Part shown: piece after piece, positions 36,690-39,624 of the stretch
How the letters are laid out: the number at the start of each line of letters is the position of its first letter
Position numbering within the stretch: the stretch's first letter is position 1
DNA from: Spongiactinospora gelatinilytica
GTDB taxonomy: Bacteria; Actinomycetota; Actinomycetes; Streptosporangiales; Streptosporangiaceae
Reading direction: 5' to 3'
DNA: 39,669 nt
Assembly (NCBI RefSeq): GCF_003236385.1
Contig: NZ_POUA01000023.1
Location: forward strand, 1-39,669
Program-made: the position numbers and the translations under genes
The notes under the pieces: generated by a model
The model's database searches: none
Seen by the model: the letters and a program-made list of their open reading frames with translations, nothing else
What the model was told of the DNA's origin: nothing

Positions 36690-36779
36690 GATCACCTCCC
36701 GGTGCCGACAATCGGCTTGGACGATCGCCTTGGGCAAGTGTCCAAAACAGTAGCACGGCCTCGCCCGGTGCTAGTTTTT

Positions 36780-36817
36780 GGGCGACCCCCCAGGGCGATC
36801 CCCCAGGGCGGTCGCCC
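36780..36817. promoter_or_regulatory. Candidate TetR operator with inverted and direct repeats
   Basis: GGGCGACC (36780-36787) and its complement GGTCGCCC (36810-36817) enclose two direct copies of CCCCCAGGGCG (36787-36797 and 36800-36810), 13 bases apart. The block lies between the divergent F420/FAD operon and the TetR gene, 34 bases before the TetR ATG. Confidence 0.5.
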
Positions 36818-36850
36818 GAAAAGCCGGAGGGTCCCAGGGGAGGGGTGGAG

Positions 36851-37468
36851 ATGGCGGAGAGATCGGCGGACCGGGGGCGGGCCACCCGGCAGCGCCTGCT
36901 CGCGGCGGCCGGCCCCCTGGTCGGCGAGGTGGGCTGGAGCGGGGTGACCACCCGGCTGGTCGCCGAGCGGGCGGGGCTCGCCCCGGGCCTCGTGCACTAC
37001 CACTTCGCCTCCGTGACCGACCTGCTGGTCGCCGCGTGCACGGCCCATGCCCGCGCGATGCTCGACGAGACCGCGCGGCGGCTGACCGCGCACGCCGACG
37101 TGGCCGCCGGCATCACCTGGCTGCTCGGCGAGCTGTCCCGCTACACCGGCGCCGACCCGGCCTCGCTCCTGCTGAACGAGGCTTTCATGGCCGCGGCGCG
37201 GGTGCCCGCGCTACGGGCCGAGCTGGCCGGGCTGCTGGCCGGTTTCCGCTCGGAGGTCACCGGCTGGCTGCACCGCGAGCGGCCGGAAGCGGACGCCGAG
37301 GCGCTGGCCGTACTGCTGGCCGCCGTCATCGACGGCATCATGCTGCACCGGGCCGTCGATCCCGCAACCGATCTGGCGGCGCTGGAAAGGCCGCTGCGCC
37401 TGTTGTTCGCCGGACGCGGCGACCTGCCCGCACCACGCCCGCGCCCCGGCCATATCGCCCGGCGATAA
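36851..37468 (+). CDS. TetR-family regulator
   Basis: 205 aa. HTH at about residues 10-55 (TRQRLLAAAGPLVGEVGWSG, TTRLVAERAGLAPGLVHYHF); the C-terminal helical domain resembles the TetR_C_6/BetI-like type (LLNEAFMAAARVPALRAEL). ATG 36851 is preferred, with GGGAGG 7 bases upstream; GTG 36845 would add two residues. Divergent from the F420-type reductase/FAD monooxygenase operon, which it probably represses through the repeats at 36780-36817. Confidence 0.88.
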   Translation: MAERSADRGRATRQRLLAAAGPLVGEVGWSGVTTRLVAERAGLAPGLVHYHFASVTDLLVAACTAHARAMLDETARRLTAHADVAAGITWLLGELSRYTGADPASLLLNEAFMAAARVPALRAELAGLLAGFRSEVTGWLHRERPEADAEALAVLLAAVIDGIMLHRAVDPATDLAALERPLRLLFAGRGDLPAPRPRPGHIARR

Positions 37469-37481
37469 CCGAAATGGACTG

Positions 37482-37510
37482 TTGACCGGTCCCTGGCCCC
37501 CACCTAGCAT
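37482..37510 (+). promoter_or_regulatory. Sigma-70/HrdB-type promoter for the M4-like protein
   Basis: TTGACC (37482-37487), a spacer of exactly 17 bases, then TAGCAT (37505-37510). Predicted transcription start is near 37517, giving a leader of about 77 bases to GTG 37594. This is the best consensus-like promoter in the window on the plus strand. Confidence 0.65.
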
Positions 37511-37593
37511 CCGAGCCGCAAGGCCGATCGGGCCGGAGTGACACGTCCGCCGCCCGTTCGAGCCTCCTGTCGCGGCGGCCGGAAAGAGGCATC

Positions 37594-38697
37594 GTGAGGT
37601 CATCCAAGGGATCGGCGGTCGCGGTCGCGCTCGCCGCGGGCATCGGCGTCGCAGCCGTCCCGGCGCAGGCCGACGCGCGATCCGCCACCGACGGCCCGGT
37701 CACGATCACCGCGACCGGCCACCACAACGGGCAGGTGCGGATCGACGTAACCGAGTCGGGCGAGAACTATCTCCTGATCGATCCGACCCGCCCCGGCACC
37801 CGGTGCGCCACCCCAAACGGCAGGACGGTGTCCATTCCCAAGGACCGCCCGCCCGGCCCCGGCAGCGAGACCTTCACGGCCTGCGTGGACATCATGTACG
37901 GCGCCCAGCGTCAGTGGGACATGCTGCGCGACTGGCTCGGCCGCAGCGGCCCGCCGGGCAACGGCCGCAACGCGCCCGCGGTCTACGACCCCAGCGGACG
38001 CGGCCCGATCTGGGGCGGTTACGTGATGTTCGGCCGCATGCCCACCGGCGGAGCGCCCGCGACGACTCTGGACCTGGTCGGCCACCAGTTCGGCCATCTC
38101 GTCTACCAGAGCACGCCGGGCGGGACGGGCTCGGGCAATGAGAGCGGCGGCCTGTTCGAGGGGGCGTCCGACATCTTCGGCGTGCTCACCGACCACTACG
38201 CCGACCATCCACAGAACCGGCCGAACTATTTGATCGGCGACTCCCCGAGCCTGATGGGGGACCGCCCGCTGCGCTACATGTACAACCCGAGCCTGCTCGG
38301 CGATCCGAACTGCTACTCCAGCGCGATTCCCAGCACCGAGGTACACGCCGCGGCGGGTCCGCTGAACCACTGGTTCTACCTGCTGGCCGAGGGCGCGAAT
38401 CCGGGCGGCGGCAAGCCGTCCAGCCCGGTCTGCGGGGGCGACCCGGCGGCCCTGACCGGCATCGGCATAAGGCAGGCCGGCCGGATCTTCATGGGCGCGC
38501 TCCAGCGGAAGACCGCCCAGTGGAGCTACGCCAAGACCCGGGTGGCCTCGGTGGCCGCCGCGATCGACCTGTTCGGTCCCGGTTCGGCCGAGTGCGCGAT
38601 CACCAAGGCGGCCTGGAGGGCCGTCAGCGTGCAGGAGCAGCCGGGCGAGGCGTCCTGCGCCGGATCGACCCCCTCCCCGGCTCCGGCCGGTCCCTAG
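37594..38697 (+). CDS. Secreted M4 (thermolysin)-like protein with HQxxH in place of HExxH
   Basis: 367 aa. The signal peptide ends near residue 27 (AVPAQA). The M4 catalytic region is recognisable: GGYVMFGRM, then GHQFGHLVYQ, ESGGLFEGASDIFG and TEVHAAAGPLNHWFYLLAEG. Zinc ligands H164, H168 and E189 and the transition-state His H251 are kept. The general-base Glu of HExxH is Q165 (codon CAG). The propeptide typical of secreted M4 enzymes is missing. It is therefore probably a catalytically inactive, zinc-binding secreted protein. GTG start follows AAAGAGG; a clean promoter lies upstream. The Pro/Ser-rich tail is short. Confidence 0.82.
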   Translation: MRSSKGSAVAVALAAGIGVAAVPAQADARSATDGPVTITATGHHNGQVRIDVTESGENYLLIDPTRPGTRCATPNGRTVSIPKDRPPGPGSETFTACVDIMYGAQRQWDMLRDWLGRSGPPGNGRNAPAVYDPSGRGPIWGGYVMFGRMPTGGAPATTLDLVGHQFGHLVYQSTPGGTGSGNESGGLFEGASDIFGVLTDHYADHPQNRPNYLIGDSPSLMGDRPLRYMYNPSLLGDPNCYSSAIPSTEVHAAAGPLNHWFYLLAEGANPGGGKPSSPVCGGDPAALTGIGIRQAGRIFMGALQRKTAQWSYAKTRVASVAAAIDLFGPGSAECAITKAAWRAVSVQEQPGEASCAGSTPSPAPAGP

Positions 38698-38714
38698 CGG
38701 CCGGTCCGCCTGTG

Positions 38715-38743
38715 CCCGTCCGGCGAATGTGGCCGGACGCGGG
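38715..38743 (+). terminator. Hairpin downstream of the M4-like gene
   Basis: CGTCCGGC and GCCGGACG form an 8-bp stem around loop GAATGTG, extended by CCC/GGG across a one-base bulge. It starts 18 bases after the stop codon. Without a T-run, but a reasonable actinomycete terminator. Confidence 0.5.
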
Positions 38744-38831
38744 CGGTGGAACCGTTACGCTGTCGGCCCAGGACGCCCAGGACGCCCAAGGGCGCGCTGG
38801 TAGGCATCGCCATTCCGTGATACGCGCTAGC

Positions 38832-38848
38832 ATTCCATTAAGCGGAAT
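38832..38848. promoter_or_regulatory. Candidate IclR autoregulatory operator
   Basis: ATTCC-ATTAAGC-GGAAT is a 17-bp inverted repeat with 5-bp perfect arms and a 7-base centre, the same geometry as the IclR sites at 17267 and 18168 but with different arm sequence. It ends 17 bases before the GTG of the second IclR gene. Confidence 0.5.
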
Positions 38849-38865
38849 TGCGAGGAGAGAGTGCA

Positions 38866-39624
38866 GTGGCTGATGCCCAATCCCCCGTGGGGAGCGTCGA
38901 TCGTGCCCTGTTGATCCTTCAGGAGATCGGCAAACACAGCAGAGGGATCACGCTGGACGAACTCGCGACCCGGATCGGCCTGCCCAAGAGCTCCCTGCAC
39001 CGGCTGCTCGGCGCGCTCAAGCACCGCGGGTTCGCCGCACAGCCGGAGACCGGCGGCCCCTACTTCCTGGGCACCGAGATGCTGGCCACGGCCTTCCGGT
39101 TCTACGAGACGATGGACCTGCGCACCCTGGTCCGGCCGCTGCTGCTGCGGCTGGGCGAGGAGTTCGCCGAGACCGTGCACATGGCCACGCTCGACGGCGG
39201 CGAGGTCGTCTACCTGGACAAGGTCGAGGCGATCAGGTCGATCACGATGACCTCGGTGATCGGCGGGCGCAACTCGGCCCACTGCACCGGCGTGGGCAAG
39301 GCGCTGCTGGCGTGGACCTACCCCACGGACGAGGCGCTTCGGGCGTGGGCGGACCGGTACGGCCCGCTGGGCACCCGGACCCGCAACACCATCACCAACC
39401 CCGCCAAGCTGGCCACCCACCTGGACCAGGTCAGACAGCGCGGCTACGCGCTGGACCTCGAGGAGAACGAGCCGGGGGTGCGGTGCGTGGCGGCCCCGGT
39501 GTTCATGGGCCGGTCCGCCCCGGTGGCGGCGGTGAGCGTGACCGCGATCAAGGACCGCATGTCGCCGGCCAGGATGGAGGAGGTCGGCCACGGCCTGCGC
39601 CGCGCGATAGCCGAGCAGGTCTGA
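38866..39624 (+). CDS. IclR-family transcriptional regulator (second)
   Basis: 252 aa. Winged HTH at about residues 8-65 (SVDRALLILQEIGKHSRGIT, ELATRIGLPKSSLHRLLGAL), effector domain with HCTGVGKALLAW, LDLEENEPGVRCVAAPVF and APVAAVSVTA. GTG 38866 has GGAG 8 bases upstream. The gene ends EQV-stop inside the left arm of the terminal palindrome. Its target genes are not in the window; a divergent or downstream catabolic gene would be expected beyond the end. Confidence 0.92.
   Translation: MADAQSPVGSVDRALLILQEIGKHSRGITLDELATRIGLPKSSLHRLLGALKHRGFAAQPETGGPYFLGTEMLATAFRFYETMDLRTLVRPLLLRLGEEFAETVHMATLDGGEVVYLDKVEAIRSITMTSVIGGRNSAHCTGVGKALLAWTYPTDEALRAWADRYGPLGTRTRNTITNPAKLATHLDQVRQRGYALDLEENEPGVRCVAAPVFMGRSAPVAAVSVTAIKDRMSPARMEEVGHGLRRAIAEQV

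Follow-up and report, generated by a model that had tools for sequence, protein, structure and literature searches.

The M4 enzymes are textbook proteases, and a propeptide is held to be necessary for the folding of their active form; within the family, the protealysin-like group is defined by a short N-terminal propeptide. In thermolysin, the role of general base falls to Glu143, and hydrogen bonds with the scissile nitrogen have been suggested for Asn112 and Ala113 (excerpts of PMC12316308). The replacement of Glu by Gln has been reported to abolish activity in endopeptidase-24.15 and (as unpublished work) in ACE (excerpts of PMC1925091).

Pseudopeptidases bearing an HQxxH motif are already known in other families, including ACE3 and the ADAMs (PMC1925091 and PMC3650047, each in part). 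ACE3, a member of family M2, arrived at its HQxxH motif through a Glu-to-Gln replacement and was judged inactive by its authors, and in this it resembles the protein described below; unlike that protein, it belongs to another family and is mammalian, and the propeptide question is absent from it (PMC1925091, in the part available). The ADAM pseudopeptidases likewise count HQxxH among their replacements, are extracellular and act by protein contacts, but are multi-domain animal proteins of M12 (available portions of PMC3650047 and PMC11266112). In a survey of CLCA, an unrelated zincin family with substituted HExxH motifs, the motif Glu has most often given way to Gln, and Arg or Lys replaces His above chance (PMC3650047, in part); this pattern of replacement is also shown by the closest relatives of the present protein (‘clade A’, below). 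In the accessible portions of a 2024 review of metallopeptidase pseudoenzymes (PMC11266112), thermolysin and ‘family M4’ are absent, and no M4 pseudopeptidase was found in the titles and abstract openings of the open-licence literature that was searched.

The gene and its protein

The stretch of DNA analysed (referred to as ‘the window’, with a length of 39,669 nucleotides) comes from Spongiactinospora gelatinilytica, whose genome is a draft of 957 contigs; the window protein lies on the contig numbered C155. The features of its gene are as follows:

37594..38697, + strand: putative pseudopeptidase gene, with a GTG start, a TAG stop, 367 amino acids and no internal stops
37594..37671, + strand: likely signal peptide, residues 1-26, ending AQA (read by eye)
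37708..38103, + strand: N-terminal half of the M4 domain, residues 39-170 (PF01447, Pfam Peptidase_M4, 49 bits)
38137..38631, + strand: C-terminal half of the M4 domain, residues 182-346 (PF02868, Pfam Peptidase_M4_C, 99.4 bits)
37984..38034, + strand: replaced substrate-binding edge strand, residues 131-147, with Gly137-Pro138 against Asn-Ala in relatives
38083..38097, + strand: HQFGH motif, residues 164-168, with Gln165 replacing the catalytic Glu (from the alignment)
38158..38172, + strand: Glu189 (third zinc ligand) to Asp193, kept in 7/7 members of clade A
38344..38346, + strand: His251, the equivalent of thermolysin His231, kept in 7/7 members of clade A

The protein is a member of M4 by its fold and by its Pfam domains, both matches exceeding the curated cut-offs. 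The solved sequences nearest to it are those of the B. cereus neutral protease and thermolysin, and an AlphaFold2 model built with 36 sequences (pLDDT 88.9, pTM 0.90) is matched best, among solved structures, by those of thermolysin (Z 34.4, rmsd 2.4 over 295 residues), followed by other M4 enzymes (Z of at least 28.7), the protealysin precursor 2vqx (23.4) and M36 (about 21). The model shows a sequence that fits the M4 fold and says nothing on folding without a propeptide; it is less confident (71) in the block that contains residues 137-146, the replaced strand.

In common with thermolysin and the other M4 peptidases, the window protein has the fold, the pattern of zinc ligands (His164 and His168, on either side of Gln165 in the alignments, together with Glu189) and the equivalents of Asp170 and His231; Glu189, Asp193 and His251 align with thermolysin Glu166, Asp170 and His231. 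Unlike those enzymes, it has no catalytic Glu, no Asn112/Ala113 strand and no propeptide. A protein that is missing both the catalytic Glu and the strand would be very unlikely to carry out ordinary proteolysis, and the alignment shows the loss of catalysis-required residues by which a pseudoenzyme is recognized.

The region in which a propeptide would be expected is short: the M4 domain begins about 12 residues after the likely signal peptide, and the GTG is preceded by no more than 36 codons of open frame after the nearest upstream stop. This upstream stretch scores 4.0 bits with a profile built from 10 propeptides, as compared to at least 133.9 bits in 86/86 of the further propeptide-bearing relatives that were held out from that profile; among all of the relatives described below, the lowest of 96 propeptide-bearing rows scores 133.9 bits and the highest of 12 propeptide-less rows scores 7.2 bits. 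Pfam FTP and PepSY produced no match in the window protein at E 0.1. The supply of a propeptide in trans from a separate gene was considered and rejected, as the genome harbors no lone FTP gene; the only two FTP matches genome-wide (E up to 1) both fall within full-length M4 frames.

Four M4 matches are found in the genome itself: two full-length genes (C44 and C288), the window gene (C155) and a degenerate copy (C388). The domains of the full-length paralogues are 51-53% identical to that of the window protein and possess the same cysteines; the paralogues differ from it in having an FTP propeptide, long C-terminal parts (in frames of 1204 and 1098 amino acids) and an intact site. The C-terminus of the window protein is a Pro-rich tail without an extra domain.

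An initial annotation of this locus had described a pseudopeptidase with an HQxxH motif, with the zinc ligands and the transition-state His kept (here His164, His168, Glu189 and His251) and the propeptide absent. The first of these points agrees with the position of HQFGH in an M4 domain, as judged from Pfam and the alignment; the others are confirmed by the residues and by the upstream stretch just described.

Relatives without a propeptide

The comparison set represents the nearest M4 proteins rather than the whole M4 family: 80 of 306 relatives were kept from a global scan, tblastn matches below 150 bits were dropped beforehand, and the loci that were retrieved contain 145 M4 matches scoring 150 bits or more, which gave 108 distinct domains, of which 96 carry a propeptide and 12 do not. 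A tree was built from the 39 rows that an 82% identity filter left of these 108, with the catalytic-Glu column excluded; in it the 12 propeptide-less rows fall into three groups: clade A (n = 7, support 100/98), which includes the window protein; clade B (n = 3, 100/100); and clade C (n = 2, 100/100). Clades A and C are joined weakly (72/87).

Among the propeptide-bearing rows, the equivalents of Asn112, Ala113, His142, Glu143, His146, Glu166 and Asp170 are each found in 96/96 and that of His231 in 95/96. The sole exception (L130:2761-4722, in genome G224) has an HEYSH motif and a Tyr at the His231 position, and is possibly another altered enzyme.

Loss of Asn-Ala, of zinc ligands or of the Glu is seen in 12/12 propeptide-less rows versus 0/96 propeptide-bearing rows, a comparison that does not represent 108 independent cases, because the tree requires only two changes in propeptide state (three if clades A and C are separate). 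The pattern of loss differs from clade to clade. Within clade A, the Asn112 equivalent is found in 0/7 and the Ala113 equivalent in 1/7; Glu143 is kept in 3/7 (with Gln in the other four) and His142 in 6/7 (with one Arg), while the equivalents of His146, Glu166, Asp170 and His231, along with four cysteines, are kept in 7/7. Both rows of clade C have an intact zinc site and Glu and have lost Asn-Ala (2/2). Clade B retains the strand almost unchanged (Asn in two and Asp in one, with Ala in 3/3), and its zinc ligands are all replaced: the motif reads GFQYGL, GAHYGL and GWQYGG, with His142, His146 and His231 lost in 3/3 and Glu166 replaced by Arg in 3/3. In these alignments, every line without a propeptide has dismantled its active site in its own way, through few independent events.

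It is the loss of propeptide and strand that marks clade A. Both losses are common to the clade, and the replacement of Glu by Gln appears as a later and repeated step; within clade A the E/Q state must have changed three times or more, and four when clade B is added (a count without direction), and the Gln codon is CAG in 4/4 and the Glu codon GAG in 3/3, one base apart. Both members with an HExxH motif are also without the strand, which suggests, without proving it, that clade A left proteolysis before the Glu-to-Gln replacement; the clade as a whole is not shown to be inactive, because these two members keep the motif intact. The initial annotation had proposed a search for an HQxxH subfamily, and had regarded homologues that were all HExxH as evidence against its reading. 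The homologues are not all HExxH, as the motif begins HQ in four of seven members of clade A; the same motif does not define the group, for it begins HE in two members and RE in one, and the idea that HQxxH marks out a subfamily (Q in four and E in three, one E row having Arg for the first His) was accordingly rejected.

Clade A is represented by at least seven proteins in at least six of 345 genomes (three Spongiactinospora and three Nonomuraea, the latter being G141, G153 and G190, with two copies in G190), as determined in a search with the clade alignment across an order-level set that is nearly the family alone, with five candidates scored per genome; the scores at the boundary of the clade drop from 549.6 to 520.2 bits. 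Clade B, known here from three Spongiactinospora genomes only, contributes one copy to each (L136:4957-6405, which is the C388 copy of the present genome, L137:4379-5797 and L138:4449-5885). The two members of clade C (L129:3727-5271 and L130:8014-9477) are HEYGH copies, found in G219 and G224, each beside a full-length M4 gene as if from tandem duplication.

Selection and the possible role of the protein

Codon maximum likelihood (ML) clearly shows the window gene to be under purifying selection: comparison with the Spongiactinospora rosea orthologue gives a dN/dS of 0.125 (p 2.8e-19 against 1), with values of 0.019 for residues 181-270 and 0.33 for residues 271-367. Counting by NG86 gives 0.40 (bootstrap 0.25-0.61), a difference to be read with the caveat that counting tends to overestimate dN/dS in GC-rich genes and that the F3x4 model may overcorrect; the neighbouring IclR gene has an NG86 value of 0.11. 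Pairs of propeptide-bearing relatives yield 0.03-0.08 by ML (n = 4) and 0.19-0.59 by NG86 (n = 7), so that a constraint weaker than that on active enzymes is clear by ML only, the NG86 value of 0.40 lying within the range of the propeptide bearers. Two further clade A pairs (0.087 and 0.042 by ML, at t of 1.0 and 2.5) overlap the active pairs, and an ML fit of the window gene with TRM90649 was saturated (t = 10) and carries no weight. The frame is intact, as in the initial annotation, and purifying selection maintains the gene.

These observations are best accommodated, and with reasonable though far from complete confidence, by a gene product that is a secreted, non-proteolytic, selectively maintained binding protein. 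Such a protein would be exported through its signal peptide, would fold without a propeptide, would probably bind zinc at the old site, and would act by contact with another protein, probably via the conserved residues at about 181-270 and not via the lost substrate strand. It would amount to a secreted, disulfide-containing protein of thermolysin fold in which the fold, the cysteines and the zinc site are kept and both cutting and the grip on substrate are lost.

Since the genome encodes two SSI-type inhibitors besides its full-length M4 enzymes, the most natural role would be to tune the proteolysis that the organism carries out outside the cell, with the protein acting as decoy or competitor towards an active protease or an inhibitor of proteases; this is the most likely single role, and a guess that we would hold only loosely. 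A decoy that works in a substrate-like mode is disfavoured by the loss of the substrate strand. The initial annotation had entertained a protein that binds peptides or has an inhibitor as partner; with the strand lost, such binding becomes less likely in its usual form, in which the ligand is held like a substrate. The SSI-type inhibitor genes lie at C227:1361-1624 and C288:17940-18161, the second about 10 kb from the full-length M4 gene on the same contig.

A broader proposal, put forward tentatively, is that the Streptosporangiaceae may have turned the M4 fold into secreted non-enzymes more than once (in clades A, C and B), shedding the propeptide and following a separate route each time: A and C would have lost the strand, A would then have changed its Glu repeatedly, and B would have lost its zinc ligands, the result being a so far undescribed class of extracellular binding proteins that tune their own organism's proteolysis. 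A natural series in which the losses of propeptide, strand, Glu and zinc ligands are variously combined, with the fold still under selection, would allow a test of whether the propeptide serves folding as such or the making of the active site, and would give research on pseudopeptidases a bacterial example that is secreted.

Among the alternatives, a secreted binding or structural protein whose work is unrelated to proteolysis (for example at the cell surface, or in the holding of zinc) is possible, if somewhat doubtful. Two Nonomuraea members of clade A have a C-terminal region that appears Ig-like by eye (He_PIG, E 0.063 in one of them), and neutrality is rejected by ML for clade B (0.21-0.24), which argues that the fold is usable without zinc or catalysis, since the zinc ligands of that clade are absent. 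However, the window protein has only its Pro-rich tail in place of such a region, and the full-length M4 enzymes and SSI-type inhibitors of the genome are plausible partners in proteolysis.

It is improbable that the protein is still a zinc hydrolase whose activity, weak or altered, needs neither the catalytic Glu nor the usual strand. The zinc ligands and the His231 equivalent are retained, residues 181-270 are strongly constrained and two members of clade A keep HExxH; nevertheless, the Glu-to-Gln replacement and the loss of the Asn-Ala strand both strike at the machinery that cleaves peptides, and the catalytic position, with its four independent states, seems dispensable.

Still harder to sustain, and very unlikely in our estimation, is the view that the gene is a decaying duplicate of an M4 protease, without its propeptide and on the way to being lost. 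The active-site losses do vary among relatives (Q, R or a replaced strand), NG86 values stand at 0.40-0.58 in clade A and at 0.73-0.81 in clades B and C (with bootstrap intervals that include 1 for the two B pairs), and the weakly constrained C-terminal part (residues 271-367) could represent partial decay. Against this, codon ML rejects neutrality for the window gene and for clades B and C alike (0.12 in C), the reading frames are intact in 7/7 members of clade A, and the promoter region is conserved above its surroundings in the comparison with S. rosea; a reading of the gene as a pseudogene is thus disfavoured by codon ML, in spite of the NG86 values of clades B and C. What had looked like a premature stop in the S. 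rosea orthologue was rejected as such, the TAG being the ordinary stop with which the match ends.

In a draft genome of so many contigs, errors of sequencing or assembly might be feared, as might an overlooked start farther upstream that hides a propeptide; both can be set aside almost entirely. They are refuted by S. rosea, a separate genome and the nearest named relative in the searches, in which the orthologue (84% identity over the best tblastn segment) has the same short frame and the same CAG codon for Gln165, so that this residue is unlikely to be an error. The promoter ends 83 bases before the GTG, and the frame opens just 36 codons upstream.

Upstream signals and neighbourhood

Three features upstream of the gene accompany the favoured reading of a maintained, secreted binding protein:

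37482..37510, + strand: sigma-70-type promoter, TTGACC-17-TAGCAT, 9/12 matches
37581..37589, + strand: purine-rich stretch resembling a ribosome-binding site, GGAAAGAGG (by eye; identical in S. rosea)
37453..37467, no strand assigned: perfect 15-nt palindrome TATCGCCCGGCGATA, a possible operator, overlapping the end of tetR in the window

The promoter noted in the initial annotation is present and conserved, and is the sole promoter-like site in 36700-39000 (shuffled sequences gave a mean of 0.2, sd 0.4); no terminator-like site was found in the same interval. A TTGA-type -35 element, a 17-nt spacer and a TA...T element occur no more than 260 bases upstream in 5/7 members of clade A, 2/2 of clade C and 0/3 of clade B, as a pattern counted without a shuffle control.

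The palindrome TATCGCCCGGCGATA ends 14 bases ahead of the -35 element. It occurs once in the present genome and once in that of S. rosea, where it lies upstream of the orthologue, and in both cases it adjoins a TetR gene; it was absent from G002 and from the three Nonomuraea genomes (G141, G153 and G190). The end of tetR in S. rosea falls about 360 bases before the start of the orthologue, and the palindrome block is still conserved; its conservation away from the end of tetR argues for a DNA signal. That the TetR protein binds this palindrome is a guess.

The operon partner that might have been expected beside the gene was rejected, as no partner gene is conserved next to it: blastp comparison of neighbourhoods, using crude gene calls, revealed no conserved neighbour beyond S. 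rosea, either with TRM90649 or with Nonomuraea. The S. rosea neighbourhood itself shares a cyclophilin-type and an IclR gene by the same method, and TetR and F420 genes on a reading of their start sequences. Farther from the gene, positions 209-25094 of the window have a catabolic look, with an M24 peptidase, a LysR regulator, an MFS transporter, two aldehyde dehydrogenases, an amidase, an E1 dehydrogenase and a ferredoxin-type oxidoreductase.
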